From Wenyingzhuangia gilva (lineage in GTDB: Bacteria; Bacteroidota; Bacteroidia; Flavobacteriales; Flavobacteriaceae), in the NCBI RefSeq assembly GCF_030519655.1, contig NZ_JAUMIT010000001.1, forward strand, positions 930,001 to 994,000: DNA of 64,000 nucleotides, read 5' to 3'. How positions within the stretch are numbered: the first letter of the stretch is position 1; every line of letters starts with the position of its first letter. The position numbers and the translations under genes were made by a program. Below the pieces are notes generated by a model, which worked only from the letters and a program-made list of their open reading frames with translations, was not told where the DNA came from and made no database searches. Positions 24,703 to 53,157 of this stretch are shown here, one piece after another.

Positions 24703-24724
24703 CAAGTTACTAATAGAGGTGATT

Positions 24725-27700
24725 ATGCGGTTTAGTTTTTTTTTCTTTTGCTATTTATTTTCATTCTTTACTTGGTCTCAAAACATCAAGTTTAAAAATT
24801 ACACCACCAATCAAGGGCTTTCCAATAATTCTGTTATTGATATAGAAAATGATCTCAATGGAGGTTTGTGGATTGCTACTTGGGATGGTCTAAATTATTT
24901 TGATGGAGAAGAGTTTACCGTTTTTAAACATGACATAGAGAATAAAAATTCTATAGCAGGAGATTATGTTATAAATGTTGAGAAAGATAAATTAGGAAAT
25001 ATATGGACTCTTACTAAAAATGGAAAAATTAGTAAATATATAGGGAATAATAGTTTTAAAAATTTTTCTTTTGATGAGGCTGCCATTGAGCTTCATATTT
25101 CTAAAGCAGGAAATATTGTTGTAAAAACCGAATCAACTTTTTGGGAGTACATTAACTCTAATTTTGTAAAAAAGAAAACTTCTTTAATTAAGCATGAAGA
25201 TGTAGTAGTTTTTCAAAATATTTTACTTCAAAAATATCCAAAATTAATCATCAATGATGTTTTAAAAGATAAGCAAGGAAATGTTTGGTTTGCCACCCGA
25301 AGAAACGGTTTGTACATTATTCCTAATCATTCTAATAATATCCAAAACACACAAATTGACCATTATACGGTTGATGTTTATTCTCCTTATACTTTTGGTA
25401 GTAACGAAATTGAGAAGCTGCATTTAGATTGTTTTAATAATGTTTGGTTGGGACAAAAAGATGGAGGATTAAGTATGGCTTACCAAGGGTCTGAATTGAT
25501 TTCTTATGTAGGGCCACATCCCATTAAATATCCACATTTACCCACAGAAACAATTAGAGCCATTACTAAAGATTTTAACGGCTGTTTATGGTTGGGCTAC
25601 TATAATAATGGTGTTTATTATTATGATAATAATTCAAAATGTTATCAAAAATATATCATTAAAGAATCTCTTCAAGATTTAAACTGGGAAAGAGTAAGAT
25701 CTTTATTTACAGCATCTGATGGAACTATTTGGATAGGTACTTATGCAGGATTAATTAGGGTTTATAATCATCAATACATCCTCTATGAATCTAAAAATAT
25801 CAAAGAATTACCTAACAATAGAAGCTATTCAATTTTTGAAGATGACAGTAAAAATTTATGGATTGCATGTTGGGGAGGTGTTGCCAAATTTAATTTAGAC
25901 AAAAATAAATTTGAAACTTTTGAAGGGCAAAAAAAATTGACAGAATACCATGTTAGAAATGTAAAAAAATCTGATTCAAAATTAATTCTAAGCACAGAAA
26001 ACAATGGTCTTGTAATTTTTGATTTGAATAAAAAAAGCATAGATAATATTAATTTAAACAAAGGAATTTTAGGGAATAGTATTTATGCTTCTTTTTACGA
26101 TGATGAGACTCAAAATTATTGGATAGCATCACTCGGTGGAGTTAGTATTTATAATATAACAAAAGGGCTTGTTAAGAATATTACAGAAGAAAACGGATTG
26201 TTAAGTCATATGGTTTATGGTTTAATCAATCAAGATCATAACGTGTGGTTAAGTACAACAAAAGGTTTAGCAGTAATCAACAAAAATACTTTTGATGTAA
26301 AGGCAATTAACCCTACAGAAGGATGGCAAGCTCCAGAGTTTTCAGAAGGATCTTATTATAAAGATCCCAAAGATGTTCTGTATTTTGGAGGTGTAAACGG
26401 CTTAAATTATTTTAACCCAAGTACTTTAAACTTAACAGATTTATCTCCAAAAATAAAATTAAAAGTAAATGGTGATGAAAATTATGCGGATAGTTTAAGT
26501 TTTGGTCATGCAAACAATAATTTAGAAATTAATGTAAAGACTATTGTTTTTCCTGAAAGTCAAAAAATCGATTTTGATATTTTTTACAAGTTAAAAGGAA
26601 TTGATGATGAGTGGCGATTATTAGATAAAAACAATAAAATATTTTACAATCATTTATATTCTGGAAAATATGATTTTTTTATAAAAACATCAGAAGATCA
26701 ATTAGCCAAAAAATACTTTTCAATTAAAATAAATAAAGCTTTTTACGAAACAACTTGGTTTAATATTACCAGTATTGTTTTGTTTGCATTTGTACTGATT
26801 TTTGTTTTTTATGTAAAAGATAAAAATGCTAAAATTCAAAAAGAGAAATTAGAAAATAAAATTTTAGATAGAACTAAGGTAATTGAAAGTCAAAAACAAG
26901 ATTTATTGTTGGTTAATCAAAAATTAGATGAAAAAAACAAAGAAATTGTTTTGCAGCAAGAAAAACTGCTTGAACTGCACAGTAATTTAAAAAATGAAGA
27001 CTTTGAACTTGAAAAATTTAAGACTTTTATTTTGTCAGAATTCCAAGAGCCAGTAACCAAAATTATTCAGCAAACAAACAAAATTAAGGAAGATACAGAG
27101 GTTCAAGGAAAACTTTTAAAAAATGCTGTTAAGCTAATTAACCTAATAACAGAATGGAGTTTTTTAGATCATGTAAAAGACATCGGAAACCAAAAAAATA
27201 GTATTATTAACTTATTTCCGGTTTTAATAGATATTGTTGAAAAAGTAAAGACTACCCTTCAAAAAAATAAAGTGAATTTTATGACGGAAATTGATGCTAA
27301 TATTAATTGGGTAGAGATAGATTTGCTAAGATTTAAGTTAGTGTTGCAATATTTTTTTAATGATATTATTAAATACTCAAGCAAACAAAGTAGTTTAAAA
27401 ACAAGCATTACTCACACAAATAATATTTTTAAAATCACCTTAACATCTAACAGTGATTTGTTAATTAGTAGTTGGGAAAACATCTATCATTATAGCCCAT
27501 ATTTTAAGTCAGTAAAAGTTTTATTAAAAGATTTGAATGGAAAATTAGAGTTGATAAATGAGCCTGAATTTAGACTAGAAATGATCTTGCCTGTAAAGAG
27601 TGTAAAGGTTGACGAAAACCATCAAATACAAACAATTTCTTGGAAGCATTTAGATAAAAGTAAAGGGTTGAACAACAATAAGTACAATGTTTTAATTTTT

Positions 27701-28447
27701 TCGGAAAAAGAAAATACAGAAATCACAAAACAACTATTATCCGATGATCAAAGTAATTTGCTTTTTGAAGACAACGTTTCCGACTTATCTTCAGCATTAC
27801 AACAAATAAATATTGATGTAGTGGTGTTTTACCAAGCTACATTTACCAAAGAATTAGTTTCATTTTTTAATCAACAAAAAAAAGGAGGTAAACAAAATAA
27901 TGTTCCTTTTGTTTATATATCAGAAGAAATAAACTACACGTTAAATGAACAATCGGTAGAGTTTGGAATAGATGTGGTAATTCAATTACCAGCTAGTGAT
28001 TCTTTTGTTAAAAAGAAAATTTATACCCTTCTAAAACCTAAAAAAGAGGTAGAAGAAAATAAGCTTCAAAAAGAAATTTATGAAATTCTTAGTGAAGAAA
28101 ATACACAACAAACTTCTAATGACAAGCTCTTAAAAAAATCATTAGAAGTTATTAAGAAAGAATTGTCTAACCCCAACTTTAATGTAGAAATGTTAATTGA
28201 CGAATTAGGGGTTTCTAGAGTTAAATGTTACAGGCTTTTTAAAGAAGCACTAAAGCAATCACCTTCGGATGTCATTACATCACTTAGGTTTCAAAAAGCA
28301 GAATATTTGTTAAAACATAAAAACTTAAACATATCAGAAATAAGTTTTGAGTGTGGTTTTAACGACCCTAAATACTTTGGAAAATCATTTAAAAAACAAT
28401 TTGGGGTAAGTCCAAAAGTATACAAAGAGCAAAATTCAACATTGTAA
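24725..28447 (+). CDS. HTCS-type regulator with degenerate kinase and receiver domains
   Basis: 1240 residues from ATG 24725 (a GTG two codons earlier is possible). Order: signal peptide; about 11 beta-propeller repeats (GGLWIATWDGLNYFDG, GTIWIGTYAGLIRVYN); a Y_Y_Y domain; one membrane span (about 678-699); coiled coil; a histidine-kinase-like region; a receiver-like region; and a C-terminal AraC domain (about 1143-1240, IDELGVSRVKCYRLFKEAL, GFNDPKYFGKSFKKQFG). The H-box reads ILSEFQEPV with Ser771 for His; the N-box reads YFFNDIIKYS with Asp880 for Asn; no DxGxG box is found; the receiver has Tyr1036 for the phospho-Asp and Leu1088 for the Lys. Phosphorelay seems impossible, while sensing and DNA binding look intact. 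It precedes two SusCD modules and probably controls them. Confidence 0.9.
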   Translation: MRFSFFFFCYLFSFFTWSQNIKFKNYTTNQGLSNNSVIDIENDLNGGLWIATWDGLNYFDGEEFTVFKHDIENKNSIAGDYVINVEKDKLGNIWTLTKNGKISKYIGNNSFKNFSFDEAAIELHISKAGNIVVKTESTFWEYINSNFVKKKTSLIKHEDVVVFQNILLQKYPKLIINDVLKDKQGNVWFATRRNGLYIIPNHSNNIQNTQIDHYTVDVYSPYTFGSNEIEKLHLDCFNNVWLGQKDGGLSMAYQGSELISYVGPHPIKYPHLPTETIRAITKDFNGCLWLGYYNNGVYYYDNNSKCYQKYIIKESLQDLNWERVRSLFTASDGTIWIGTYAGLIRVYNHQYILYESKNIKELPNNRSYSIFEDDSKNLWIACWGGVAKFNLDKNKFETFEGQKKLTEYHVRNVKKSDSKLILSTENNGLVIFDLNKKSIDNINLNKGILGNSIYASFYDDETQNYWIASLGGVSIYNITKGLVKNITEENGLLSHMVYGLINQDHNVWLSTTKGLAVINKNTFDVKAINPTEGWQAPEFSEGSYYKDPKDVLYFGGVNGLNYFNPSTLNLTDLSPKIKLKVNGDENYADSLSFGHANNNLEINVKTIVFPESQKIDFDIFYKLKGIDDEWRLLDKNNKIFYNHLYSGKYDFFIKTSEDQLAKKYFSIKINKAFYETTWFNITSIVLFAFVLIFVFYVKDKNAKIQKEKLENKILDRTKVIESQKQDLLLVNQKLDEKNKEIVLQQEKLLELHSNLKNEDFELEKFKTFILSEFQEPVTKIIQQTNKIKEDTEVQGKLLKNAVKLINLITEWSFLDHVKDIGNQKNSIINLFPVLIDIVEKVKTTLQKNKVNFMTEIDANINWVEIDLLRFKLVLQYFFNDIIKYSSKQSSLKTSITHTNNIFKITLTSNSDLLISSWENIYHYSPYFKSVKVLLKDLNGKLELINEPEFRLEMILPVKSVKVDENHQIQTISWKHLDKSKGLNNNKYNVLIFSEKENTEITKQLLSDDQSNLLFEDNVSDLSSALQQINIDVVVFYQATFTKELVSFFNQQKKGGKQNNVPFVYISEEINYTLNEQSVEFGIDVVIQLPASDSFVKKKIYTLLKPKKEVEENKLQKEIYEILSEENTQQTSNDKLLKKSLEVIKKELSNPNFNVEMLIDELGVSRVKCYRLFKEALKQSPSDVITSLRFQKAEYLLKHKNLNISEISFECGFNDPKYFGKSFKKQFGVSPKVYKEQNSTL

Positions 28448-28461
28448 GTATTACTGTACGA

Positions 28462-28494
28462 TTAACCCTGTGTTAACCTAATGTTAGTGCAACC
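28462..28494 (+). promoter_or_regulatory. Three 11-bp direct repeats upstream of susC1, likely operator
   Basis: TTAACCCTGTG, TTAACCTAATG and TTAGTGCAACC follow each other with a one-helical-turn period. They end 131 bp before the SusC start and about 94 bp before the -7 box. The same array occurs at the same distance before the second SusC gene. Position and period suit an AraC-type activator; binding is inferred. Confidence 0.55.
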
Positions 28495-28625: not shown

Positions 28626-31600
28626 ATGAAAAAAGTGTATCTATTTTTGTTGATGACCATAGGACTTGTATCCCTTTCTATGGCTCAAGTATCTGTAAGC
28701 GGAACAGTCGTTTCTGAAACAGATAAAACTCCTATACCAGGAGCATATGTTGTTCTTAAAGGACAGTCAGTAATATCAACCATCACCGATTTTGATGGAA
28801 ATTTTGTTCTTGAGTTAAAACAGAACAAAGGAACTTTAGAAATTACCTATTTAGGGTATCAAACCCAAAGTATTGATTTTTCTGGAAATCAAAAATTAAC
28901 GATTGCTCTTAAAGAACAATCTAATAGTTTAGAAGAAGTTGTGTTAATTGGTTATGGTTCTTCTAGTAAAAAGAATATTACAACTTCCATAACAAAAATT
29001 GAAGATGTAAAGTCTATTGCTACAAGACCGGTAAACAATGTTTCTGATTTTTTACAAGGTAGAGCACCAGGTGTTACTGTTTTATCAGATGGTGGAGATC
29101 CAACAGCATCTCCTAAAATTGTGATTAGAGGAACTGGTTCTCTTTCTAACGAAACACCTTTAACTGTTGTTGATGGAGTTCCATATTACGGTCCTGCAAT
29201 TAACCCTAATGATATTGCTTCTATTTCTATATTAAAAGATGCAGCTTCAGCTTCTATTTATGGAGCACAAGCGGCTTCAGGAGTTATTGTTATTGAAACT
29301 AAAAAAGGTAAAACAGGAAAACCTCAAATTAGTTTTGATGCTTACACTGCTTATCAAAGTGCAACAAATTTACCTACCCCTTTAAATGCCAAAGAACAAG
29401 CAGATGTTTACAATTTAGCGGCTGATAATGCTGGAGTTCCTAGACAAGCTTCTCATGATGCTTCTAAGAACCCTTGGGGACAAACAACTAGAACCAATTG
29501 GATTGATGAGGTTTTTAGAACCGCTCCAACGTATAATGCAAATTTAAGTATTAGTGGTGCGACTGATAAAATTAACTATTTAACTTCTTTTGGATATAAC
29601 AAAAAAGAAGGGGTGTTAATTGGAAATGATTTTGAGAGATATTCTTTTAGAGTAAAGACCGATGTAGACTTGTCTGATAAAATTAAGGTAGGAGAAAATG
29701 TTTATTTTTCTAAATCTAACGCTAATGGTTTTGCAGAAACAGCAGGAAATACACAAGGTGTAATTACCAATGCTATGTGGATGCCTTCAGCTGCTCCTGT
29801 TTACGATTCTAATGGAAACTATAGCGGTACAGTACCTAGTGATAGACCAGACTTACTCCCTTTTGCTGGAGCTTATGGAGATGTGTATAATCCTGTTGCT
29901 TTATTAAAAAGACCAACAACAACACAACCAAATTCTTTTGTAAACGCAAATGCTTACTTTGATTATGAGGTTATTAAAGGATTAAACTTTAAGTCAACAT
30001 ATTCTTATAGCTTAAAAAATGATAATTATAAACGCTTTTCACCTAGAATACCAGAAATAGGTAGAACTAATACTAAAAATTCTTTAGAGCAATCTAATGC
30101 AATTACTAATAAGTGGATTTGGAGCAATCAATTATCTTACAAAAAATCTTTTGGAGAGCACAGTCTAGATGCAACAGCTATTTATGCTGCACAAAAAACA
30201 GATTATGAGTATTTTGGAACTATTGGATATGATTTTGACGATGAAAACGGATATAATCAATATATAGGAAATGCTAAAAACTCTCCAAATAGAGCAGTAC
30301 TTAAATCAGATGTTTACGAAGATGCATTAAGTTCTGCCATAGGTAGAGTAATGTATAATTACAAAAATAAATATTTTGTTACAGGAAGTATTCGTAGAGA
30401 CCAAACATCAAGATTGGCTAAAGACAATCAAGTAGGATATTTCCCTTCAGGATCTGCTGGTTGGGCCATTTCAGAAGAAGATTTTTTTAATGTTGAATCT
30501 ATAGATAATTTAAAGCTTAGAGCTTCTTGGGGACAAATTGGAAACATTAATTCTGTAGGATATTATTCATACAATGTTCCATTATCGTCATACAATGTTA
30601 TTGTTAACGGAAATGGTGATTTAAATGCTCAAGGTATTTCTTTAAATCAATTGTCAAATCCTGATTTAACTTGGGAGACTTCAGAATCTTATGATCTAGG
30701 TTTAGATGCTACTTTGTTTAATAGAAAGTTGTCTTTAACGGTAGATTATTTTAAGAAAACTACCAAAGGAATGATTTTGCCAGGTTTATCAGACAGTCAT
30801 CAAGGAGCAGATGCTGCTTATGTAAATGCTGGTAAAGTTGAGAACTCTGGTTTTGAATTTACAGTAACTTATAAAGATGCTATTGGTGATTTAGATTATT
30901 CTATTGGAGCAAATGCATCAACTCTTAGTAACAAGTTATTAAATCTAGATGGTTATAATAACAATGGTATTGATTACGTGGTGCATGGCGATAATTATAA
31001 AAATATTTTAACACCATTTAGGTCTTCTGTTGGAGAACAATTATTTTCTAATTTTTTAGTGCCTTATATGGGTATTTTCCAATCTCAGTCTGAGATAGAT
31101 GCTTACAAAAAAGATGGAAACTTAATTCAGCCAAATGCTGTTCCTGGAGATTTTAAATTTAAAGACAGCAATAATGATGGAAAAATAGATGCGAATGATA
31201 AGGTGTTTATGGGGAGTTATTTACCAAAGGTAACCTATAATTTTAATCTTAATTTAAATTATAAAGGTTTTGATTTAGGTCTAATACTTCAAGGTGTTGG
31301 AAAGGTAAACATTTTTAATGCTCAAAAATATACAGCATATAACGCATCTTTAAATGGCTTTAATTTAGATAATCGTGTATTAAATGCATGGAGTCCTACA
31401 AATAAAAATACGAACATTCCTAGAGTTTCTACAAAAGATGAAAATCTTAATTATCAAACCAACTCTAGTTGGTATTTAGAAAATGGAGCTTATTTAAGAT
31501 TAAAAAATATCAACTTAGGGTATACGCTTCCTAAAGATATTCTTTATGGTTCTAGCCTTCGTTTGTTTATATCGGCTGAAAATGTGTTTACTTCTACAAA

Positions 31601-31700
31601 ATATTCTGGAATAAATCCAGAAGTAGGTGGTAAAGGAATGGATTTAGGTAAGTATCCAGTTCCTAGAGTTATTTCAGCAGGATTATCTCTAAAACTTTAA
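28626..31700 (+). CDS. SusC/RagA-family TonB-dependent receptor (module 1)
   Basis: Outer-membrane transporter that works with its SusD lipoprotein. The 1024 residues comprise a signal peptide (1-20), a carboxypeptidase-regulatory-like domain (22-105, SGTVVSETDKTPIPGAYV...DFDGNF), a TonB-box-like stretch (EEVVLIGYG), the plug (ISILKDAASASIYGAQAASG) and a 22-strand barrel ending SAGLSLKL. There is no STN domain, so sigma/anti-sigma signalling is not expected. Its first 62 residues match module 2 at 55 positions, and the rest diverges strongly. The pair with the next gene and the downstream phosphatases suggest a phosphorylated ligand; this is inference. Confidence 0.94.
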   Translation: MKKVYLFLLMTIGLVSLSMAQVSVSGTVVSETDKTPIPGAYVVLKGQSVISTITDFDGNFVLELKQNKGTLEITYLGYQTQSIDFSGNQKLTIALKEQSNSLEEVVLIGYGSSSKKNITTSITKIEDVKSIATRPVNNVSDFLQGRAPGVTVLSDGGDPTASPKIVIRGTGSLSNETPLTVVDGVPYYGPAINPNDIASISILKDAASASIYGAQAASGVIVIETKKGKTGKPQISFDAYTAYQSATNLPTPLNAKEQADVYNLAADNAGVPRQASHDASKNPWGQTTRTNWIDEVFRTAPTYNANLSISGATDKINYLTSFGYNKKEGVLIGNDFERYSFRVKTDVDLSDKIKVGENVYFSKSNANGFAETAGNTQGVITNAMWMPSAAPVYDSNGNYSGTVPSDRPDLLPFAGAYGDVYNPVALLKRPTTTQPNSFVNANAYFDYEVIKGLNFKSTYSYSLKNDNYKRFSPRIPEIGRTNTKNSLEQSNAITNKWIWSNQLSYKKSFGEHSLDATAIYAAQKTDYEYFGTIGYDFDDENGYNQYIGNAKNSPNRAVLKSDVYEDALSSAIGRVMYNYKNKYFVTGSIRRDQTSRLAKDNQVGYFPSGSAGWAISEEDFFNVESIDNLKLRASWGQIGNINSVGYYSYNVPLSSYNVIVNGNGDLNAQGISLNQLSNPDLTWETSESYDLGLDATLFNRKLSLTVDYFKKTTKGMILPGLSDSHQGADAAYVNAGKVENSGFEFTVTYKDAIGDLDYSIGANASTLSNKLLNLDGYNNNGIDYVVHGDNYKNILTPFRSSVGEQLFSNFLVPYMGIFQSQSEIDAYKKDGNLIQPNAVPGDFKFKDSNNDGKIDANDKVFMGSYLPKVTYNFNLNLNYKGFDLGLILQGVGKVNIFNAQKYTAYNASLNGFNLDNRVLNAWSPTNKNTNIPRVSTKDENLNYQTNSSWYLENGAYLRLKNINLGYTLPKDILYGSSLRLFISAENVFTSTKYSGINPEVGGKGMDLGKYPVPRVISAGLSLKL

Positions 31701-31734: not shown

Positions 31735-33330
31735 ATGAATAGAAATATTTTTAAAATAACAAGTGTATTATTAATAATGCTTGTTGGGCTTTCGGTAGCC
31801 TCTTGTAGTGAGGAATTTACTGATTTTCAACCCCAAGGAAATACCTCTTCTGGTAACTTTTGGAAAACACAAGAAGATGCAGAAAAAGCTGCAAATGGCT
31901 TATATTTTTACATGAAAGATGAAGATATGTTTTCTAGAGGATTTATGTGGTACATAAATGCATCAGACGATATTATCACAGGACGTATCAAAGGTTTTGC
32001 AGATAATACAAAGAATTTTATTTTAGACGGTAATGAAGATGGATTAAAATGGATGTATCCTCAAAGTTTTAAAATCATAAGAAGAGCAAATGACATTTTG
32101 GCAAATGTTCCTAATATGAATTTTGATGAGGCTACTAAAAACAGAATCATAGGTGAAGCTTATTTTATGAGAGCTTTTCATTATCATCTTTTAGCATATC
32201 ACTATGGTGATGATAAAAGTGGAGGTATTCCAATCATTACCGAGGAAAATATGAATGCAACTGCCGGTAGTTTTAAAAGACCAGCAAGTGTTGTTGATAA
32301 TTACAAACAAATTGTAGAAGATTTACAAAAAGCTGCTGATTTATTGCCTTTAATTACTAAGTACAACGATGCTGATAAAGGAAGAGCAAATAAGGATGCC
32401 GCTTTAGCTTACATGGCAAAAACCTATTTATACTGGGCACAATTTGATGCCACTAAATATGCAGATGCAGTTAAAGCTTGTGATGCGGTTACAAATTCAG
32501 GATCAGGAAGAGCCTTGTTTACCGTTGGAAATAACAATCCTAAAGAAGATTATAGAAAATTACATAGTCATTTAAGTAACTGGAGTTCAGAATACATATG
32601 GAGTGTAAACTCAGGGGTGCAATCTGGAAGTAAATTGCCAGGTGTTATGTTAGAAAATAAAGGTTGGGGAGCTTATAATGGTTGGGGATATTACCAACCA
32701 ACAGAAGAGTTATATCAAGAATTTGAAGATGGAGATCCTAGAAGAGAAGTAACAATTCTTAAGTTTGGAGATGAGTTTCCATACTTTGGGGAAACAAAAA
32801 AATATCAATCATCAAATTCACTATCAGGTTTTCAGTTTAATAAATATATGTACGAATATGGTGAAAAAGATGCAATAGGAGTTGATTTAAACTCAAATGG
32901 TGATGATCCGTCAACAACCTACAATGTACCTTTATTACGCTATGCAGAAATTTTACTAATAAAAGCTGAAGCTTTGATCATGCAAGGTAAAAACGGAGAT
33001 GTTCCTTTAAATTTAGTAAGAGCAAGAGTAGGTTTGGCTCCTAAGACAAATGCTACTATGGAAGATTTAAAGCACGAGCGAAGAGTAGAATTGGCTGCTG
33101 AATTTGCTGATAGACATTTTGATTTGGTTCGTTGGGGGGATGCAAAGGAGGTATATAGTAAGCCACTTCACGGTAGAATTCATGAAGATGCTTCTAATCC
33201 TGATTCACCATATAAAGTAGAAGAGGTTTGGCCAGCAAGAAATTTTGATCCTTCATATATGAATGTTTGGATAATTCCTCAAGGTGTAATTAACTCTTCA
33301 GGAATTCCGCAAAATAAAGGTTGGGATTAA
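31735..33330 (+). CDS. SusD/RagB-family nutrient-binding lipoprotein (module 1)
   Basis: 531-residue surface lipoprotein that forms the lid of the SusC barrel. The lipobox is VASC with Cys24. SusD-family stretches include NFWKTQEDAEKAANGLYFYM near the start, GEAYFMRAFHYHLLAYHYGD (TPR-like helices), and near the end LLRYAEILLIKAEALIMQGK and ERRVELAAEFADRHFDLVRW. It follows its SusC by 34 bp and ends at a GAAA-loop terminator. The ligand is not predictable from the sequence. Confidence 0.93.
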   Translation: MNRNIFKITSVLLIMLVGLSVASCSEEFTDFQPQGNTSSGNFWKTQEDAEKAANGLYFYMKDEDMFSRGFMWYINASDDIITGRIKGFADNTKNFILDGNEDGLKWMYPQSFKIIRRANDILANVPNMNFDEATKNRIIGEAYFMRAFHYHLLAYHYGDDKSGGIPIITEENMNATAGSFKRPASVVDNYKQIVEDLQKAADLLPLITKYNDADKGRANKDAALAYMAKTYLYWAQFDATKYADAVKACDAVTNSGSGRALFTVGNNNPKEDYRKLHSHLSNWSSEYIWSVNSGVQSGSKLPGVMLENKGWGAYNGWGYYQPTEELYQEFEDGDPRREVTILKFGDEFPYFGETKKYQSSNSLSGFQFNKYMYEYGEKDAIGVDLNSNGDDPSTTYNVPLLRYAEILLIKAEALIMQGKNGDVPLNLVRARVGLAPKTNATMEDLKHERRVELAAEFADRHFDLVRWGDAKEVYSKPLHGRIHEDASNPDSPYKVEEVWPARNFDPSYMNVWIIPQGVINSSGIPQNKGWD

Positions 33331-33577: not shown

Positions 33578-33593
33578 GAGTATTATTGTAGGA

Positions 33594-33626
33594 TTAACCT
33601 AGTGTTAACGCAATGTTAGTGTAACA
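33594..33626 (+). promoter_or_regulatory. Three 11-bp direct repeats upstream of susC2, likely operator
   Basis: TTAACCTAGTG, TTAACGCAATG and TTAGTGTAACA match the array before module 1 at most positions. The distance from first repeat to SusC ATG is 164 bp in both. The 426-bp spacer 33331-33757 thus holds terminator, regulator remnant, this array and the promoter. Confidence 0.55.
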
Positions 33627-33757: not shown

Positions 33758-36712
33758 ATGAAAAAAGCGTATTTATTTTTATTGATGACCATAGGATGCA
33801 TATCCCTTTCTATGGCTCAAGTATCTGTAAGCGGAACGGTAATTTCCGAAACAGATAAAACTCCTATACCGGGAGCATATGTGGTTTTAAAAGGACAAAC
33901 AGGAACATCAACCATTACAGATTTTGATGGAAATTTTGTTTTACCAGTAAATGAAAATAAAGGAGTTTTAGAGATTTCTTATTTAGGATATGCAAGTCAA
34001 AGCGTAAGTTTTGAAGGAAATCAAAACTTAAAAATATTTCTAAAAGAAGAGGCTAGCGGTTTAGATGAAGTAGTAATTGTTGGATATGGTTCTCAAAAAA
34101 AATCGGATGTTACGGGTTCTATTGCTTCTGTAAAGAGTGAAGACTTTAACAAAGGAGTTGTAGCCAATGCAGGTCAATTATTACAAGGTAAGGTTGCAGG
34201 AGTAAATGTGTCAAGTGCAAGTGGTGAACCAGGATCTGGTCAAGATATTGTGGTTCGTGGAGTTGGTAGTTTACGCTCTGGAACAACACCTCTTTATGTG
34301 GTAGATGGTTTTGCGATTGACAACTCAGGAAACGGTGTTCCAACCAATCCATTAAACTTTATCAATCCACAAGATATAGAAAGTATTGATGTGTTAAAAG
34401 ATGCATCGGCAGCGGCAATTTATGGAGCAAGAGCAGCAAATGGAGTAATTGTAATTACTACCAAAAAAGGAAAATCTGGAGTGTCTCAAATTAATTTAAC
34501 CCTATCTACAGCATTGTCTTCAATAGCCAACAAAGTTGATGTTTTTGGGGCGGATGAATTCCGTAAACAAGTGGTTGCGGTTGGTGGTGATCTTTCCGAC
34601 GGTGGTTCTAATACAGATTGGCAAGATGAATTAACAAGAGCAGCAGTTTCTAACAAAACAAATTTATCTATGAGTGGAGGTTCTGATCAATCTTCATATT
34701 TTGGATCTGTAGGAGTAGAAGACATTCAAGGAATTTTAAACAATAACAATTTAAAAAGATATTCTGCAAAAGTAAACTTATCACAAAAAGCCATTGATGA
34801 TCGTTTAAAAATAGATTTTAATTTAACAACTTCTAGAACAGAAAATCAAAGATCAGATGCAAGGTCAATGGTGGGAAGTATGTTAGAGCTAAACCCTACA
34901 GTACCTGTTTATACTAATGGTGTTCCAACAGATTTAGGAGATAGAACAAATCCTAAAGTAACGGAAGCTATTTACGGAGATTATTCATACAACAACCGTA
35001 TATTGGCCAACATTGCTCCTTCTTTTGAGATTGTAAAAGGCTTAACATATAAATTAAATTTAGGAGTTGATTATTCTACAACTAATAGAGATGTACAAAC
35101 GTTGCCGTATAAAGAAGCTGGAGTTACTCAAGGTTTTTTAGATACTTATGTAAATACAAACAGAAATACACAGGTAGAAAATACTTTAACATATACACTT
35201 AAGCAAAATGAACATGACTTTACGTTATTGGTTGGTCAATCATTTCAAGAGAACTTTAATACATCAAAAGGTTGGTCTTATGATGGATATCCAGAAAACG
35301 GGGTAGAGCCAAGATATCAAATGAGTTTGGGTAATTTAACAGGAGATTCTTCTTCTGCGGATACCAATCAACTACAATCTTTTTTTGGAAGATTAAACTA
35401 TGGATATGATAATAAGTATTTATTTACAGCAACCATGCGTGCTGATGGTTCTTCAAAGTTTGGAGAAAACAATAAATACGGATACTTTCCTTCTGTAGCT
35501 GTTGGATGGAATATTGCTAAGGAAGATTTTATGAAAGATAGTTCTATCAATAATTTAAAATTAAGATTTAGTTGGGGACAAACAGGAAATCAAGAGATTC
35601 CATCAAAAATTACCAAAGCAAGTTATGGTGAAAGTGGTGAGGATAATGACATTTATCCTTTGGATGGAAGTGTTGTTAACAAAAGTGATTATCCTTTAGG
35701 ATTGGTATATAGCCGTACTGCAAATCCAAATCTTCAATGGGAGGTTTCTACACAAACCAACTTAGGATTAGATTTTGGATTGATGAATAATAAGTTTTCT
35801 GGTACGTTAGATGTTTTTAATAAAATATCGGATAACATTATTTTAAATGCAGTGACTACTGATCCAATTAATCCAACACCAACTTATTGGATTAACATTC
35901 CAAACATGGAAATCAAAAATACGGGGGTAGAATTATCATTAGATTATCAAAGCGATAGAAGAAAAGACTTCTCTTATAATGTTGGAGGAAACTTTTCATA
36001 CACAAAAAATGAAGTGAGCAATTCTCCTTATCAAGTATTTGCAACTGGTGCTGCACAAGGATCTGGACAAAGTGGAGCAACTATTAATGGGTATATCAAC
36101 GGAGAATCTATAGGAACATTTTATATGCGTGAATTTACTGGAATTGATGACCAAGGATTTAGCGTGTACAAAGATGTGAATAAAGATGGGACTATTGATG
36201 ATAGAGATAGAGCGGCTGCAGGAAGTGCGTTACCAGATTATATGTATGCATTTTACTTAAACTTTGTATATAAAAACTTTGATTTAGGGTTAAACTTTAA
36301 TGGAGCAGGTGGTCATAAAATATATAACCACACAAGAATGTCTTCTTTTAATATTGGGAATATTCAAGGGTCTTCTAATACTACTAGTCAGGCAGTTGAG
36401 TTTTTAAATGAATCTCCTCAAAATGCAAATTCAGTATCAACCCGTTATTTAGAAAAAGGTGATTTCTTAAGATTAAACAATGCAACGTTGGGATACAATT
36501 TAAGTCCTAAAACTATTGGAATTGGTCAATGGGTTAAAAACATTAGGCTTTCGTTAACTGGGCAAAATTTATTTGTTATTACAGATTATCAAGGTTTTGA
36601 TCCAGAAGTAAACACTGGAAGTCAATCTGGAGGGATTAAAACTTTTGGAATTGATTATTACTCATACCCAAAAGCCAGAACTTTCTTATTTGGATTAAAC
36701 GTATCATTCTAA
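33758..36712 (+). CDS. SusC/RagA-family TonB-dependent receptor (module 2)
   Basis: 984 residues with a signal peptide (1-20), carboxypeptidase-regulatory-like domain (22-105), TonB-box-like EVVIVGYG, plug (IDVLKDASAAAIYGARAANG) and barrel ending FLFGLNVSF. The leader, start and first 62 codons are close copies of module 1, including most synonymous sites, but the plug and barrel are clearly divergent, so the ligand may differ. This mosaic pattern suggests duplication followed by divergence, or conversion of the 5' end. It has its own promoter and operator and is 21 bp from its SusD. Confidence 0.94.
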   Translation: MKKAYLFLLMTIGCISLSMAQVSVSGTVISETDKTPIPGAYVVLKGQTGTSTITDFDGNFVLPVNENKGVLEISYLGYASQSVSFEGNQNLKIFLKEEASGLDEVVIVGYGSQKKSDVTGSIASVKSEDFNKGVVANAGQLLQGKVAGVNVSSASGEPGSGQDIVVRGVGSLRSGTTPLYVVDGFAIDNSGNGVPTNPLNFINPQDIESIDVLKDASAAAIYGARAANGVIVITTKKGKSGVSQINLTLSTALSSIANKVDVFGADEFRKQVVAVGGDLSDGGSNTDWQDELTRAAVSNKTNLSMSGGSDQSSYFGSVGVEDIQGILNNNNLKRYSAKVNLSQKAIDDRLKIDFNLTTSRTENQRSDARSMVGSMLELNPTVPVYTNGVPTDLGDRTNPKVTEAIYGDYSYNNRILANIAPSFEIVKGLTYKLNLGVDYSTTNRDVQTLPYKEAGVTQGFLDTYVNTNRNTQVENTLTYTLKQNEHDFTLLVGQSFQENFNTSKGWSYDGYPENGVEPRYQMSLGNLTGDSSSADTNQLQSFFGRLNYGYDNKYLFTATMRADGSSKFGENNKYGYFPSVAVGWNIAKEDFMKDSSINNLKLRFSWGQTGNQEIPSKITKASYGESGEDNDIYPLDGSVVNKSDYPLGLVYSRTANPNLQWEVSTQTNLGLDFGLMNNKFSGTLDVFNKISDNIILNAVTTDPINPTPTYWINIPNMEIKNTGVELSLDYQSDRRKDFSYNVGGNFSYTKNEVSNSPYQVFATGAAQGSGQSGATINGYINGESIGTFYMREFTGIDDQGFSVYKDVNKDGTIDDRDRAAAGSALPDYMYAFYLNFVYKNFDLGLNFNGAGGHKIYNHTRMSSFNIGNIQGSSNTTSQAVEFLNESPQNANSVSTRYLEKGDFLRLNNATLGYNLSPKTIGIGQWVKNIRLSLTGQNLFVITDYQGFDPEVNTGSQSGGIKTFGIDYYSYPKARTFLFGLNVSF

Positions 36713-36732: not shown

Positions 36733-38523
36733 ATGAAAAATAAAATTATAGCAGCAATTTTCAGTGTCGGTTTGTTGATGAACTGGAGTTGTACAGATTT
36801 AGAAGAACAAGTATTAGATGAGTCTTTAAAGGGAACTACAGGAGCAACACAACCTGTTAGTGGAGCATTGTCTGCTGCATACGGTAATATGTCACAAACT
36901 TTTAGACATACAAGGTATTTTGGTTTGGTTGAATTGGCTACCGATGAAGCTATTTTACCTCCTCGTAATGGTAAAAACGGGGCTGGAACACAATGGCAAG
37001 ATGGTGATAGATATGTAGGATTGCACACACATAACTTTCCAACTGCTAATAGTCTAATAACAGAATCTTGGGATTACTTAACAACAGATATTTCTAGAAC
37101 AGTTACAGCAATTGAATCATTATCTGCACTTGCAAAAGCAGGAGATAGTGAAGCTCAAAAAGCAGTGTATGAAATGAAAGCTTTAAGAGCTTATTTTAAT
37201 ATGATTGTTTTAGATACTTGGGGAATTGTTTTTAAAAAAGAATCTTCAAGCGAAACTTCTCAGATTCTTCGTGGTCAAGAGGCTGTAGATTACATAGAAA
37301 GTGAATTTTCTTCGGTAGTTACTTTAATGAGTGATAATATTGGACCAGGAAGAATTACTCAGTCAGCAGTTTATGGTTTTTTAGCAAAGTTACACTTAAA
37401 CGCAGCGGTGTATCGTGATCCTTATGGAACTCCAGATTTTAAAAAGGAGGATATGGATAAAGTTATAGAGTACACAGATAATGTTATCAATTCTGGAAAA
37501 TTTTCTATATCACCAGAGTATTTTGATTTGTTTAATGATGAAAATCACGATAATCCTGAAATTATTTTTGCTGTAGACCAAAGAGGAGTCTTAAAAAATG
37601 ATCAAAACCGTTGGGCCTATTGGTCTATGTCTGGTTCGTTATTTCCAAGACCAGATGATTTTTATATTGATATGGATGGTACAGATGGTCCTGCAATTAC
37701 TTCAGATTACTATCAAACATGGGTAGAGGCTTATGGAAATGAAGATCCTGCTAGAGATGCAAGATTTTATCAAAAGAATGCAAAAGTTCCTGCTAATTTA
37801 GAAGATTTAACAGGTTTAAATCCAACAAACGATGCTGATCACTATTACTGTGTAGGTGATGAAGATGGAGATGGTGTAAATGATTTTGAAATGGATAGAG
37901 GTATTTTACGTGGTACCATTTGGGCACCAAGAAAAATAGACTTTAACAAATCTAATGGTGTTATGACTTGTGATGATGGATATAGAATTTATCCTTTGGC
38001 TGAAATGAGAGAAAATGGTTCAGGGGGTGTTAAATATTATGTAAATCATACAGAAGAAATTAATTTTTCACCTACCATTGGGTATGCAAGTGGATACCGC
38101 GTGGCTAAATGGCAGTTTAGTAAAACATCTCAGAATGGAAATAATTATAGCAGTGTAGATCTTGTTTTGTTACGTTATGCAGATATTTATTTAATGCGAG
38201 CAGAAGCAAAACTTAGAAATGGTGATGCAGCAGGTGCGCTTTCGGATGTAAATTACGTAAGAAGTCAAAGAACTGCTCGTCCTGACCAAACTCCACCAGC
38301 TTTAGCTTCATTAAATTTAGATATTCTTTATCGTGAACGTGGTTTTGAATTTTATTGGGAAATGTCTAGAAGAACAGACATGATTCGTTTTGGACATTAT
38401 GAAGATACATGGACTGAAAAAACAAATGCTGACCCTAAAAAGAGGTTATTTCCAATCCCTCAAAATGCAGTAGATGGAGCTACAAACGTTCCTGGGTACT
38501 TAGAACAAAACCCAGGTTATTAG
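36733..38523 (+). CDS. SusD/RagB-family nutrient-binding lipoprotein (module 2)
   Basis: 596-residue lipoprotein with Cys20 in MNWSC. SusD features are KALRAYFNMIVLDTWG-like helices (EMKALRAYFNMIVLDTWG), LVLLRYADIYLMRAEAKLRN and the C-terminal ERGFEFYWEMSRRTDMIRFG. It shows little resemblance to the module 1 SusD beyond the family pattern and carries an acidic insert (DEDGDGVNDFEMDRG) that could bind calcium. It ends at a terminator before the first phosphatase gene. Confidence 0.93.
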   Translation: MKNKIIAAIFSVGLLMNWSCTDLEEQVLDESLKGTTGATQPVSGALSAAYGNMSQTFRHTRYFGLVELATDEAILPPRNGKNGAGTQWQDGDRYVGLHTHNFPTANSLITESWDYLTTDISRTVTAIESLSALAKAGDSEAQKAVYEMKALRAYFNMIVLDTWGIVFKKESSSETSQILRGQEAVDYIESEFSSVVTLMSDNIGPGRITQSAVYGFLAKLHLNAAVYRDPYGTPDFKKEDMDKVIEYTDNVINSGKFSISPEYFDLFNDENHDNPEIIFAVDQRGVLKNDQNRWAYWSMSGSLFPRPDDFYIDMDGTDGPAITSDYYQTWVEAYGNEDPARDARFYQKNAKVPANLEDLTGLNPTNDADHYYCVGDEDGDGVNDFEMDRGILRGTIWAPRKIDFNKSNGVMTCDDGYRIYPLAEMRENGSGGVKYYVNHTEEINFSPTIGYASGYRVAKWQFSKTSQNGNNYSSVDLVLLRYADIYLMRAEAKLRNGDAAGALSDVNYVRSQRTARPDQTPPALASLNLDILYRERGFEFYWEMSRRTDMIRFGHYEDTWTEKTNADPKKRLFPIPQNAVDGATNVPGYLEQNPGY

Positions 38524-38598: not shown

Positions 38599-39708
38599 AT
38601 GAATAAAATTATAAAATCAGCATCTGTATTTTTAGGAATATTGGTATTGGCATCATGTTCTAAAAATCAAGAAGCAAAAAAAATATCAGAAGAACCATTA
38701 AACATCATTTTTATGGTGGGAGATGGAATGGGAATTCCACAAGTGTCTAGTGCTTTTTATTTTGGAGAAGGAACCCCCAACTTTAAACAATTTGAATCTA
38801 TAGGTTTAAGCAGAACGTCAAGCGCTAGTCATTTAATTACCGATTCTGCTGCAGGAGCAACAGCTTTTTCTACAGGTGAAAAAACATACAAAAGAGCTAT
38901 TGGCGTTTCTAAAGACACCATTTCTTTACCTACTATTTTAGAGCAATTACAGGCAAAAGGATATCAAACAGGTTTGGCATGTTTAACTTCTTTAACACAT
39001 GCAACACCAGCAGCTTTTTATGCACATGTAAAAGATAGAGATATGCATGAAGAAATTGCAGATTATTTGGTGAATGCTCATGTTGATTTTTTAGCAGGTG
39101 GCGGAAAAAAGTTTTTATCTAAAAGAAAAGATGGACGTAACCTTTTTGATACGTTAATCAAACAAAATTACAAGTTAGATACTTTGTCTTTGTCTGAAAT
39201 TGACCCTACAAGACCCAATGCTTTTTTTCTAACTGAGAATGAATTACCAAATAAAATTCAAGGAAGAAAAGATTTTTTGTCAGAAGCAACTAAAAAAGGA
39301 TTGGATTATTTTTCTGCCAACAAAAAGCCATTCTTCTTTATGGTAGAAGGTTCTTTTATAGATTGGGGAGGTCATGCAAAAGATGACAAAATGATGATAG
39401 AAGAAGTATTAGATTTTGATAAAACCATTGGGGTGGTGTTAGATTTTGTAAAAACACATCCTAATACGTTAGTAGTCGTTACTGCCGATCATGAAACAGG
39501 TGGCGTAAGCATTGGAAAGTTTTATGAAGAAGATACTAAAGGAAATAAAAAAGAAGTTCCTAATAAGGTACAAGTATATTTTAATACCGATCAGCATAGT
39601 ACAGAATTAGTGCCTGTATTTGCTAAAGGTAAAGGTGAAGAGTTGTTTAGAGGAATTTACGAAAACAATGAAATTTACCACAAACTGATAAAGGCTATTG
39701 GTAACTAA
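38599..39708 (+). CDS. PhoA-type alkaline phosphatase lipoprotein
   Basis: Releases phosphate from phosphomonoesters. The 369-residue protein has a lipobox (VLASC, Cys20), so it is anchored to a membrane. All metal and active-site residues of the PhoA family are visible: D42 (VGDGMG), nucleophile S83 (TDSAAGAT), T136 (HATPAAF), R147, E250 (VEGSFID), D255 and H259 (DWGGH), D297 and H298 (TADHETGG), and H333 (DQHSTELVP). It lies 75 bp after the SusD gene and is a partner of the following fused phosphatase. No exact physiological substrate can be named. Confidence 0.94.
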   Translation: MNKIIKSASVFLGILVLASCSKNQEAKKISEEPLNIIFMVGDGMGIPQVSSAFYFGEGTPNFKQFESIGLSRTSSASHLITDSAAGATAFSTGEKTYKRAIGVSKDTISLPTILEQLQAKGYQTGLACLTSLTHATPAAFYAHVKDRDMHEEIADYLVNAHVDFLAGGGKKFLSKRKDGRNLFDTLIKQNYKLDTLSLSEIDPTRPNAFFLTENELPNKIQGRKDFLSEATKKGLDYFSANKKPFFFMVEGSFIDWGGHAKDDKMMIEEVLDFDKTIGVVLDFVKTHPNTLVVVTADHETGGVSIGKFYEEDTKGNKKEVPNKVQVYFNTDQHSTELVPVFAKGKGEELFRGIYENNEIYHKLIKAIGN

Positions 39709-39784: not shown

Positions 39785-41587
39785 ATGTTTTATATGTTAC
39801 GCAAATTATTTATATGTGTATTGTTATGCAGTGTCTCTGCGTTATATGCACAAACTCCAAAATTACATTCTCACAACGATTACATGCAAAAAGTTCCTTT
39901 TTGGAACGCTTTTTCTGCTGGATTAAATTCTATAGAAGTGGATGTTTTTCTAAAAAAAGGAAAATTATATGTAACCCATTCAGTAAACGAAATTGATAAA
40001 AACAAAACTTTAGAGAAGTTGTATTTAGACCCTATGATGGAGGTTCTAAATAACAACATAGCGTTTCAAGATCTACAATTGCTTGTTGATGTAAAATCTG
40101 ATGCTATAAAAACCTTGGATAAAATTCAACAAACTTTAAAGAAGTATCCAAAAATCATTCAGCATTCACAAATTAAAATTGTGATTTCTGGAAACAGACC
40201 TAATGCCGAGGACTATTTTAAATATCCAGAATATATTTCTTTCGATTATCAAGAATTAGACAATGCTTTGGCTCCTAAAAATCTAGCAAAAGTAGCCATG
40301 GTAAGTACTAGTTTTAAAGATTATTCTGTATGGAATGGAAAAGGTAGGTTGACACATGATGATTTTGATAAAGTTTCGAATATCATTAAAAAATTAAAGA
40401 GTTTTAATAAGCCTATTCGTTTTTGGGCAACTCCAGATTCTAAATCTGCATGGAATACATTTGTAAAACTAGGGTTAGACTTTGTTAATACTGATCAACC
40501 ATCAAAATGTGCAGAGTATGTAAATACTTTGAATCACAGAACGGCAAAAGCATTGATAAAATCAGAAGTTTATCAACCTACTTTTGAGTATGAAAAACAA
40601 GTCAATCAAAAAGTGAAAAATGTTATTTTTTTTATTGGAGATGGTAATGGTTTGTCACAAATTTCATCAGCAACATTGGCAAATAATAAACAGTTAACAG
40701 TTACTCAACTAAAAAATATTGGATTTATAAAAACACAATCTACAGATGATTTTACAACAGATTCTGCTGCAGGAGGTACTGCTTTTGCTACTGGACAAAA
40801 ATCATACAACAGAGCTATTGGTGTAAATACAAACGGAAATAGTATTCCAAATATTACCGAGGCCTTACATCGTTTAAACTACAAAACAGGTTGCATTACT
40901 ACCGATGAAATTATAGGTGCAACTCCGGCGGCTTTTTATGCACATCAAAAAGATAGAGGTTTTGAAAAACAAATAGCAAAAGACTTATTAACTAGTAAGT
41001 TAGATTTTTTTGCAGGTGGTGGTTCTCGTTTCTTTGAGGATTTAAAGATTGATCAAGTCTTTAACATTGTAGCGAATACAAGTCAATTAAATAATTTGGA
41101 TAAAAGTGCAAGAGCTGGGATTTTCTTTTCAAAAGGAGGAGTACTTTCTATAGCAGAGGGAAGAGGAAACTTATTGGCAAAAACAACAAAAGATGCGTTG
41201 ACTTTTTTGAGTAAAAAAGAACAACCTTTTTTCATCATGATAGAAGGAGCGCAAATAGATACTTTTGGACATCATAATGACACAGAGGGAATTGTAAATG
41301 AGGGGATTGATTTTGATAGAGCCATTACAGAAGCTATTAAATTTGCCGATGCTGATGGTGAGACTTTGGTAATTATTACTGCTGACCACGAAACATCTGG
41401 GTTTAGTGTTTCTAGCGGAAACGTGGAAACTCATCAAATAGAAGGAGGATTTATTACCCACGATCATACCGCTACCATGGTGCCTATTTTTGCATATGGT
41501 CCTCAGTCAGATAAATTTAGAGGAGTTTACGAAAATAATGAAGTGTTTCATAAAATTATGGAAGTGATCAACGCATCAAAAAAATAA
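39785..41587 (+). CDS. Phosphodiesterase-like domain fused to PhoA-type alkaline phosphatase
   Basis: 600 residues. After a signal peptide (about 1-22, ALYAQ) comes a GDPD/PLC-like barrel domain (25-250) with KLHSHNDY (H28, H30), IEVDVFLKKGKLYVTHS (E51, D53, H65), QLLVDVKS and a closing FVNTDQP. The second half is a complete PhoA domain: D286, S327, T380, E487, D492, H496, D534, H535 and H561. The fusion could cut a phosphodiester and then remove phosphate from the product. The first domain lacks the HRG signature of classical GDPD, so its exact chemistry is open. A later ATG three codons in is an alternative start. It abuts the next phosphoesterase gene by 5 bp. Confidence 0.88.
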   Translation: MFYMLRKLFICVLLCSVSALYAQTPKLHSHNDYMQKVPFWNAFSAGLNSIEVDVFLKKGKLYVTHSVNEIDKNKTLEKLYLDPMMEVLNNNIAFQDLQLLVDVKSDAIKTLDKIQQTLKKYPKIIQHSQIKIVISGNRPNAEDYFKYPEYISFDYQELDNALAPKNLAKVAMVSTSFKDYSVWNGKGRLTHDDFDKVSNIIKKLKSFNKPIRFWATPDSKSAWNTFVKLGLDFVNTDQPSKCAEYVNTLNHRTAKALIKSEVYQPTFEYEKQVNQKVKNVIFFIGDGNGLSQISSATLANNKQLTVTQLKNIGFIKTQSTDDFTTDSAAGGTAFATGQKSYNRAIGVNTNGNSIPNITEALHRLNYKTGCITTDEIIGATPAAFYAHQKDRGFEKQIAKDLLTSKLDFFAGGGSRFFEDLKIDQVFNIVANTSQLNNLDKSARAGIFFSKGGVLSIAEGRGNLLAKTTKDALTFLSKKEQPFFIMIEGAQIDTFGHHNDTEGIVNEGIDFDRAITEAIKFADADGETLVIITADHETSGFSVSSGNVETHQIEGGFITHDHTATMVPIFAYGPQSDKFRGVYENNEVFHKIMEVINASKK

Positions 41588-52100: not shown

Positions 52101-53157
52101 TTATGATGTAACCATTAAGCCAATTAATGATTTAAATATTCAGTTAACTGGAAATAGAACTTATTCCAGTAGTTCTAGTCAGCAAATAGATTATGTTACG
52201 GGGAGTAATAATATAGAAGCTTCTAAGGTTAATACTTACGGAAACTTTAATATTTCATATTCATTGATAAAAACGGCTTTTAATGGTAATGCAGATGAAT
52301 TATTTAACACATTCATCAGTAATAGATCAAAAGTGGTGAGTCAGATACATCCTAATTATCAGGGAGAAATCAATGCAGGAAATGGTACCTTAACTCAGGC
52401 ATTAAATAGCCAAGAAGTTTTAATTCATTCTTTCTTATCGGCATACAGTGGTGGAGATGTTATCAGTAGTGATAAAACTATTTTTAGGAGTTTGCCAATA
52501 CCAAACTGGCAATTAACCTATAGAGGTTTAATGAATATTGGGTTTATCAAAAGTAACTTTAGCAATTTTACCCTTACACATGGTTATAATTCATCATATA
52601 CTATTAACAATTTTTCTAGTAATTTAAATTCAGATATTACCAACCCATTTCAATCAAACTTAATTTATTCAGGAGTTACCTTGGTTGATGCTTTTTCACC
52701 ATTGATTAAAGTTGATGTGAAATTAAAAAATTCATTATCGTTTAGAGGAACCATTAATACCAGTAGAACTTTATCGCTAAACTTAAATAACACCACCTTA
52801 TCTGAAGTTTTAGGAAATGAATATGTGTTCGGAATTGGTTATCGTATTAAAGACGTATCTCTTAAAACAAGATTCTTAAAACAAAGAAAAACGTTAAAAG
52901 GGGATGTAAATATAAAAGCAGATGTTTCATATAGAACTGATGTTACAAGCATTAGAAGTATTGATGCATCAGCGAGTCAGCCTGTTGGAGGACAAAATTT
53001 ATTAGGAATTAAAATTGCAGCAGATTATAATTTAAGTCGTAATTTTACGGCAAGTTTGTATTACGATCAGAACGTGTCTAGTTATGCAATTTCAACATTA
53101 TACCCAAGACAATCTATCAATACAGGACTAAGTATAGTATATAACCTAGGAAATTAA
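46141..53157 (+). CDS. sprA: Type IX secretion translocon protein SprA (Sov)
   Basis: Forms the very large outer-membrane channel through which type IX substrates leave the cell; also needed for gliding. At 2338 residues it has the length typical of SprA. Start is TTG, followed by a signal peptide (about 1-22, NGYGQ). The N-terminal part contains the SprA pattern [20 protein letters not shown] and [21 protein letters not shown], repeated later segments include [11 protein letters not shown], and the protein ends in barrel strands up to YNLGN. The gene is followed by gcvH after 11 bp. Identification is firm from length, patterns and the ruvA-sprA-gcvH order. Confidence 0.95.

Follow-up and report, generated by a model that had tools for sequence, protein, structure and literature searches.

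Introduction

One-component transmembrane activators of the SusR/ToxR kind join a periplasmic sensor to a cytoplasmic DNA-binding domain in one chain, with no histidine kinase (HK) or receiver (REC) folds, and the pseudo-histidine kinases RetS and DivL, the latter with Tyr in place of the phospho-His, act on separate partner kinases. For the hybrid two-component systems (HTCSs) of Bacteroides, one study describes a motif, S/CHIP-DK, through which the receiver restrains the AraC domain as long as it is unphosphorylated and whose substitution gave phosphorylation-independent DNA binding in the response-regulator fragment of a normal HTCS; the same study reports BT4236, which has Gln848 at the phospho-His position, and suggests that it is phosphorylation-independent (PMC11253607). 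Here we describe an HTCS gene of Wenyingzhuangia gilva, located at 24725..28447 of a 64,000-nucleotide stretch (the window; contig NZ_JAUMIT010000001.1, positions 930,001 to 994,000), the product of which has lost its phosphorelay residues and is referred to below as the dead HTCS.

Pseudo-histidine kinases and pseudo-receivers are treated as general classes in a 2025 review, which terms the switching of bacterial pseudo-receivers a mystery, and published survey figures from the same source put HisKA domains without His at 0.9% and receivers without Asp at 2.0% (PMC12632262). Predicted HTCS binding sites are direct repeats, with a 20- or 21-bp period in at least three cases (PMC3878776). The PUSII locus of Flavobacterium johnsoniae is induced by Pi depletion; alongside PusCD it has a PhoA with PF13653, and the regulator in it is FecR-like (PMC8115612).

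Our reading, to which we assign a probability of roughly 0.77, is that the dead HTCS is a conserved, functional, phosphorylation-independent transmembrane regulator running a phosphate-scavenging SusCD-phosphatase locus. A fuller account, toward which we lean with somewhat less assurance, is that of an HTCS lineage from which phosphate has been removed at the donor, the acceptor and the phosphorylation-released lock, with the kinase and receiver folds kept under selection as a mechanical line, and which controls phosphate-scavenging loci that are under FecR in relatives.

Gene, domains and lost phosphorelay residues

The gene is an unbroken open reading frame on the forward strand (ATG at 24725, stop codon at 28445-28447, zero internal stops) encoding 1240 amino acid residues; an alternative in-frame GTG start at 24719 would add two more. 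The product, which has 15 orthologues in other genomes, begins with a periplasmic region of Reg_prop propeller and Y_Y_Y (residues ~20-670; 24782..26734), for which Pfam matches and the PDB relatives 4a2l and 3v9f are available, followed by a hydrophobic run judged by eye to be transmembrane (residues ~676-700; 26750..26824) and a long coil to residue ~755. Alignment and modeling place next a pseudo-DHp domain (dimerization and histidine phosphotransfer; residues ~756-824; 26990..27196), a pseudo-CA domain (catalytic and ATP-binding; residues ~825-960; 27197..27604) and a pseudo-receiver (residues ~985-1105; 27677..28039). An AraC-type DNA-binding domain, recognized by Pfam and by structure match, completes the chain (residues ~1131-1240; 28115..28444). 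The sensor, the DHp/CA and receiver folds and the AraC output thus stand in the order found in HTCSs, and the coil before the DHp carries an insertion of ~17 residues relative to the ordinary HTCSs of the same genome.

Pfam searches of the 1240-residue protein at E<=10 returned Reg_prop (74.5 bits, six stretches), HTH_18 (71.8 bits), HTH_AraC and Y_Y_Y, the last at 25.5 bits and below its cut-off of 26.6, together with two further weak matches judged irrelevant. HisKA, HATPase_c and Response_reg gave zero matches even at this threshold; as a positive control, all three were matched in each of the genome's nine remaining Reg_prop HTCSs.

Alignment with these nine proteins puts Ser771 at the position of the phospho-His, Asp880 at the N-box Asn, Tyr1036 at the phospho-Asp and Leu1088 at the Lys, and the same positions stand in a wider HTCS alignment. 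There is no DxGxG motif, and a deletion has removed the segment with the ATP lid and G-boxes. A sequence-only reading of the window had proposed these four assignments, the absence of both boxes, an intact frame and normal-looking propeller, Y_Y_Y, membrane and AraC parts; the alignments and an AlphaFold model bear out the assignments, and the remaining points stand, with Y_Y_Y slightly under its cut-off and the membrane span seen by eye.

The same reading had asked whether this copy alone might be damaged. The substitutions are conserved across all 16 orthologues (own protein included): the phospho-His position holds Ser in 14 and Ala in two, the N-box Asn position Asp in 14 and Glu in two, and in 16/16 the receiver Asp is Tyr, the receiver Lys is Leu, the ATP lid is deleted and the receiver acidic pair begins with Ser, Cys or Gly. 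Local decay of a single copy is ruled out by losses common to the whole set. When the cytoplasmic parts of the 16 were searched at E<=1, HTH_18 was found in every one; HisKA and HATPase_c were not among the best 25 of the 27 matched families, so placed that at most one member could match, at E >0.5.

A different His or Asp might have taken over the canonical chemistry. His975, in the linker between CA and REC, is kept in 14/16 orthologues; Asp866, in the pseudo-CA, is invariant, and no other Asp between residues 690 and 1130 is shared by 15 or more of the 16; and the invariant Tyr1036 is modifiable in principle. Over the same residues, however, no His column is conserved in at least 15/16 orthologues and no receiver Asp is either, and DxGxG and the ATP lid are gone, which makes such a hidden relay extremely improbable and answers the proposed check for a conserved His or Asp elsewhere in the two domains.

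The S/CHIP-DK lock is altered as well. Its Asp is Asn in 14 and His in two of the 16 orthologues (Asn in the window) and its Lys is Leu, Val, Ile or Ala in all (Leu in the window). D and K are present in 9/9 of the own-genome HTCSs, of which only five have the S/CHIP half exact, and among 27 HTCSs from other genomes the first position is D in 23 and E in four, the second K in 25 and R in two. Donor, acceptor and phosphate-released lock are therefore all altered in the dead-HTCS clade: the 1240-residue protein is without the HisKA phospho-His, the HATPase_c Asn and DxGxG, the receiver Asp and Lys, and the D-K half of the lock. To judge from these residues, the lineage is very probably phosphorylation-independent.

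Distribution and comparison with ordinary HTCSs

Full-length orthologues occur in 16 of 397 Flavobacteriaceae genomes, the own genome among them, and in 13 of 237 genera, at identities of 41-74%; the highest value belongs to Wenyingzhuangia marina DSM 100572 (G228) of the same genus. Searching 395 sampled genomes of the class with the 1240-residue protein at E<=1e-60 returned the own genome as the sole match. A family profile was also run on 247 genomes; of its 40 match rows, 30 were taken as loci, and except for the window's own these were ordinary HTCSs and one AraC protein. For the wider alignment 29 loci were entered, from which a 287-residue AraC protein (L110) and a duplicate (L123, the same gene as L041) were dropped to give the 27; in the own genome ten Reg_prop stretches were reduced to nine by dropping a 795-residue open frame with no HTCS alignment (L044).

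The nine own-genome HTCSs all retain His, Asn, Asp and Lys, and the full comparison set of 36 (nine from the own genome and 27 spread over 19 further genomes of the class), which represents the best profile matches in the sample (30 of 40 match rows) and not a census, keeps His, Asp and Lys without exception. Joint loss of His and Asp is therefore not common among the HTCSs examined. In a quick tree of 52 cytoplasmic regions the 16 dead HTCSs are separated from the 36 ordinary ones by one branch of length 2.04 with support of 100.

Some of the comparison proteins have peculiarities of their own. The CA domain of one HTCS with His, Asp and Lys (L105, genome G591) seems to be without its N-box part; four others (L097, L098, L115 and L118) have a frayed DxGxG and retain His, Asp and Lys; and two HTCS-like open frames of G317 (L101 and L117) are just 916 and 934 residues long, with His, Asn, Asp and Lys present and a sensor that may differ.

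Predicted folds and constraint

Residues 690-1240 were modeled with AlphaFold using the 16 orthologues as input (mean pLDDT 80, pTM 0.57). In the model the DHp is a hairpin, the CA-like part a sandwich and the receiver a complete beta-alpha fold, followed by an AraC domain; a single helix spans residues 691-784. Ser771 lies within DHp helix 1 and Asp880 within the N-box helix, while strand beta-3 ends in Tyr1036, beta-4 ends in Ser1066 and Leu1088 comes after beta-5. Because these residues sit at the expected places, the motif assignment holds structurally in the model, with Tyr1036, Ser1066 and Leu1088 where Asp, Thr/Ser and Lys belong. In structure comparisons the modeled pseudo-CA resembles the CA domain of ETR1 (Z 15.9, rmsd 2.6, 139 aligned residues), the pseudo-receiver the REC domain of KdpE (4l85; Z 14.9, rmsd 2.3, 115 aligned) and the AraC domain the C-terminal domain of AraT (Z 15.6, rmsd 1.7, 111 aligned). 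The HTCS response regulator 12aw was matched by sequence but was not among the 50 structure matches listed for the model of the REC and DNA-binding domain (REC-DBD) fragment. With folds kept, key catalytic residues lost and the whole conserved in evolution, the protein has the marks of a pseudo-histidine kinase and of a pseudo-receiver at once.

The Foldseek matches listed have ShkA first and many ordinary kinases, and alongside these DivL (4q20) and RetS (6dk7), which raises the question of whether the dead HTCS could still take part in phosphorelay by partnering an active HTCS or kinase, as RetS and DivL do with GacS and CckA; nine active-looking HTCSs are encoded in the genome. Yet the protein carries an AraC domain of its own, its receiver has no Asp to take phosphate, and the repeat element described below is specific to the locus, so that we hold action through a partner to be very unlikely.

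The dN/dS ratios are rough, since many cells have a dS that is undefined or close to saturation; they indicate that all domains are constrained, the pseudo-CA least. To W. marina the values are 0.03 for the pseudo-DHp, 0.06 for the pseudo-REC, 0.016 for the AraC domain, 0.16 for the pseudo-CA and 0.20 for the propeller.

The same figures bear on the possibility that the protein is a constitutive, sensor-independent DNA-binding factor or a relic, its AraC domain always bound and its membrane part a leftover. Since S/CHIP-DK substitutions made a normal HTCS fragment bind DNA phosphate-free, a protein without the lock is possibly always on (PMC11253607), and the pseudo-CA is the least conserved of the folded cytoplasmic parts. 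A leftover sensor would, however, hardly be expected to show Reg_prop repeats and Y_Y_Y in all 13 orthologues whose full length was scanned, numerous propeller and coil residues unchanged across 13 aligned sequences, or a propeller dN/dS of 0.16-0.20 in the three pairs, out of five, that had a finite dS, next to the low pseudo-DHp value to W. marina. We regard constitutive binding as distinctly unlikely.

An operator-like repeat element

Upstream of the transporter genes lies a 44-bp element of four 11-bp direct repeats with the unit xxTTAxxxxAA. Element 1 (28449..28492, + strand; exact pattern match 28451-28492) precedes susC1 and element 2 (33581..33624, + strand; exact match 33583-33624), a near-identical copy, precedes susC2. 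The element is present in all 16 dead-HTCS loci, just after the HTCS stop codon and overlapping it in some, with TTA in all four units in 12 of them. Of the periods 7 to 15, period 11 gives the highest summed TTA score (175, vs 122-131 for the others).

A matrix built from the 15 other loci, the window excluded, gives 43.4 before susC1 and 41.1 before susC2, the next non-overlapping site of the window reaching 5.8. Leave-one-out tests put the element at the top in 14 of the 15 loci (18.3-45.9), the exception being W. marina, where it comes second (24.4), behind that species' own SusC2 copy (37.7). Elsewhere the best scores are low: 9.0 across 145 kb of other own-genome stretches, 3.0 in nine own-genome stretches of 5.5-7 kb around the canonical HTCSs, and 7.1 in seven related loci with FecR in place of the dead HTCS. 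The element tracks the regulator, being found in the dead-HTCS loci, whereas the FecR loci score low.

A TAnnTTYR box, the -7 element of Bacteroidota, occurs 95-98 nt downstream of the element in 13/15 loci, and both window promoters have TAnnTTTG 97 nt downstream of the element end; the last ~40 nt before the two window susC start codons are almost identical as well. An AraC dimer, each monomer of which has two helix-turn-helix units, could be accommodated on two 22-bp pairs.

Boxes bound by PhoB/PhoP are likewise 11-bp direct repeats, and the element could be a Pho box for PhoB, with the dead HTCS acting elsewhere or little. The genome encodes two OmpR-like regulators with PhoB-model matches below the cut-off, and Pi depletion induces the PUS loci of F. 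johnsoniae (PMC8115612). The exact pattern, derived from these very loci, matches only twice in the 3.35-Mb genome, before susC1 and susC2, however, and at <=2 mismatches there are 46 matches vs 55 for a reversed control, an absence of excess which gives no sign of a wider regulon. The best matrix scores in the ~3.7 kb surrounding each of these PhoB-like genes are 1.3 and 0.3, and the element accompanies the dead HTCS in 16/16 loci. Binding by PhoB is disfavoured because other genomic sites are lacking and the FecR loci score low; we consider the Pho-box reading unlikely and judge it weaker than that of an AraC operator. The alternative explanations weighed here overlap in part, and their odds need not sum to one.

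The phosphatase-SusCD locus

Downstream of the dead HTCS and on the same strand, the likely targets of regulation are SusC1, a TonB-dependent transporter (28626..31700), the SusD1 lipoprotein (31735..33330), SusC2 (33758..36712; also in W. marina) and SusD2 (36733..38523). These are followed, again on the + strand, by an alkaline phosphatase (38599..39708; PF00245, E 5.9e-70), a fusion of GDPD_2 (PF13653) with alkaline phosphatase (39785..41587) and a calcineurin-like phosphoesterase with MetallophosN/C domain matches (41593..43083).

In each of the 15 other loci with an orthologue, the HTCS, SusC1 and SusD1 genes are neighbours. SusD1 is followed by a fusion relative in 14/14 of those that extend to this point, the W. 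marina stretch ending earlier. The locus resembles PUSII in having SusCD near an alkaline phosphatase with PF13653, this domain having been seen in the window and in one orthologue locus (L048). Relatives of SusD1 (E<=1e-100) are found in 23 of 397 genomes, 16 of which have the dead HTCS and seven of which, with SusD1 at 45-60% identity, do not; in all seven of the latter (L084-L090) a FecR gene directly precedes susC. With FecR before SusC in seven loci and the dead HTCS there in 16, the PUSII-like loci fall into one branch that has the dead HTCS and another that has FecR, a swap of regulators within one transporter family. The SusC proteins of the FecR loci are also longer by roughly 100 residues (1119-1160 vs 1021-1057 residues). 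A third sampled genome of the window's genus (G383) is without the HTCS and without SusD1.

The GDPD_2-alkaline phosphatase fusion at 39785-41587 is apparently of the PhoA1 type of F. johnsoniae PUSII (PMC8115612). PhoU gave no match in the own genome, whereas 13 of 14 control genomes matched, a result with no bearing on PhoB; phosphate control in the Wenyingzhuangia gilva lineage may lack PhoU. Further along the window, a 2338-residue frame following ruvA (46141-53157) may, to judge by its position, be SprA of type IX secretion.

Proposed mechanism and its weighing

We propose that the periplasmic propeller would sense a ligand linked to the locus, possibly a phosphodiester, a phosphomonoester or a phosphorylated glycan. 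The transmembrane helix and the long coil would carry the resulting change to the pseudo-DHp/CA/receiver stack, which has the folds but not the chemistry, with coil and pseudo-DHp transmitting a rearrangement of the dimer. The stack may in this way position or free two AraC domains on the 44-bp four-unit repeat upstream of susC, and the AraC pair on the repeat would then favour transcription of the SusCD-phosphatase operons. In this scheme we infer dimerisation, the ligand, element binding, the conformational step and activation rather than repression.

Several observations weigh against the proposal. The receiver site is not wholly erased: the Thr/Ser position still holds Ser (Ser1066) in 15/16 orthologues, the Pro after the Lys position (Pro1089) is kept in 16/16, and two of the 16 cytoplasmic parts give a weak Response_reg match (best E 0.0036). 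Domain placement in the models is uncertain (pTM 0.57 for residues 690-1240 and 0.48 for the REC-DBD fragment). The rough dN/dS figures to the distant L022 and L056 are 0.21-0.25 for pseudo-CA and pseudo-REC, not below the 0.16-0.19 of the propeller, and the low conservation of the pseudo-CA counts here too, as does the use of best matches in place of a census for the comparison HTCSs. Four of the 16 loci have TTA in just three of the four units; taken locus by locus, the intergenic TTA score is weak in several, with 117, 96, 39 and 36 of 300 shuffles scoring as high (L047, L046, L045 and L055); unrelated sites in orthologue stretches score up to 16.3 (L050 and L092); and 11-bp direct repeats also suit regulators of the OmpR/PhoB type. 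The evidence is computational throughout, and binding of the element by the AraC domain is a prediction.

Set against these points, the notion of a working one-piece transmembrane activator, as put forward in the sequence-only reading, is strengthened as regards a functional regulator because synteny is conserved, an operator-like element is present, the dead domains are under constraint and the Asp-Lys half of the lock has been lost; activation itself is the proposed output. The companion claim that the whole phosphorelay was lost holds for the donor, ATP-site and acceptor residues and overreaches for the receiver site, in which Ser1066 and Pro1089 remain. Similarly, the idea that the signal passes by conformation and not by phosphate is supported in its second half by loss of the phosphate chemistry in 16/16 orthologues, the conformational half standing as a proposal.

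Significance and relation to known systems

Signalling by HK and REC domains without phosphate is a live question, and the dead HTCS offers both domains dead in one chain, together with a defined operator candidate and, in Wenyingzhuangia gilva, a locus small enough to test. If the proposal is true, HK-REC stacks can convey a signal across the membrane to DNA with no phosphotransfer at all. A regulator would also be added to the PUS-like loci of marine Flavobacteriaceae. For annotation there is a warning, in that Pfam misses the kinase and receiver parts and the protein resembles an unexplained propeller-AraC fusion.

Among the matches listed by a literature search that mostly did not extend to subscription journals, no title or opening of an abstract reported an HTCS without both His and Asp; the sequence-only reading knew of no named class of this kind. 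That view needs narrowing, however: a partial precedent for loss of His alone is in print with BT4236, and pseudo-kinases and pseudo-receivers are discussed as classes.

The closest relatives remain the HTCSs of polysaccharide utilization loci (PULs) in Bacteroidota, which have the same order of Reg_prop/Y_Y_Y, transmembrane, DHp, CA, REC and AraC parts, adjoining susCD genes and an upstream direct repeat. Unlike them, the dead clade is without His, Asn, DxGxG, ATP lid, receiver Asp, Lys and the D-K pair, carries the ~17-residue coil insertion and resides in a locus with phosphatases. BT4236 is similar in having no phospho-His, in the suggestion that it works phosphate-free and in its membership of a deviant S/CHIP-DK group; it is a single protein, and is set apart by its description, the accessible text of which mentions no loss of the ATP site or of the receiver Asp (PMC11253607). 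RetS and DivL have the HK fold with a changed output and were among the structure matches listed, whereas in the dead HTCS a receiver remnant and a DNA-binding domain are part of the same chain. To SusR/ToxR-like activators the dead HTCS is a functional analogue, from which it differs in possessing HK and REC folds. The pseudo-receivers described in the review share with it a REC fold without Asp and Lys, but here pseudo-kinase and pseudo-receiver share one membrane-spanning chain (PMC12632262). Finally, F. johnsoniae PUSII has a similar combination of PusCD and a PF13653 alkaline phosphatase, with a FecR-like regulator there and the dead HTCS here (PMC8115612).

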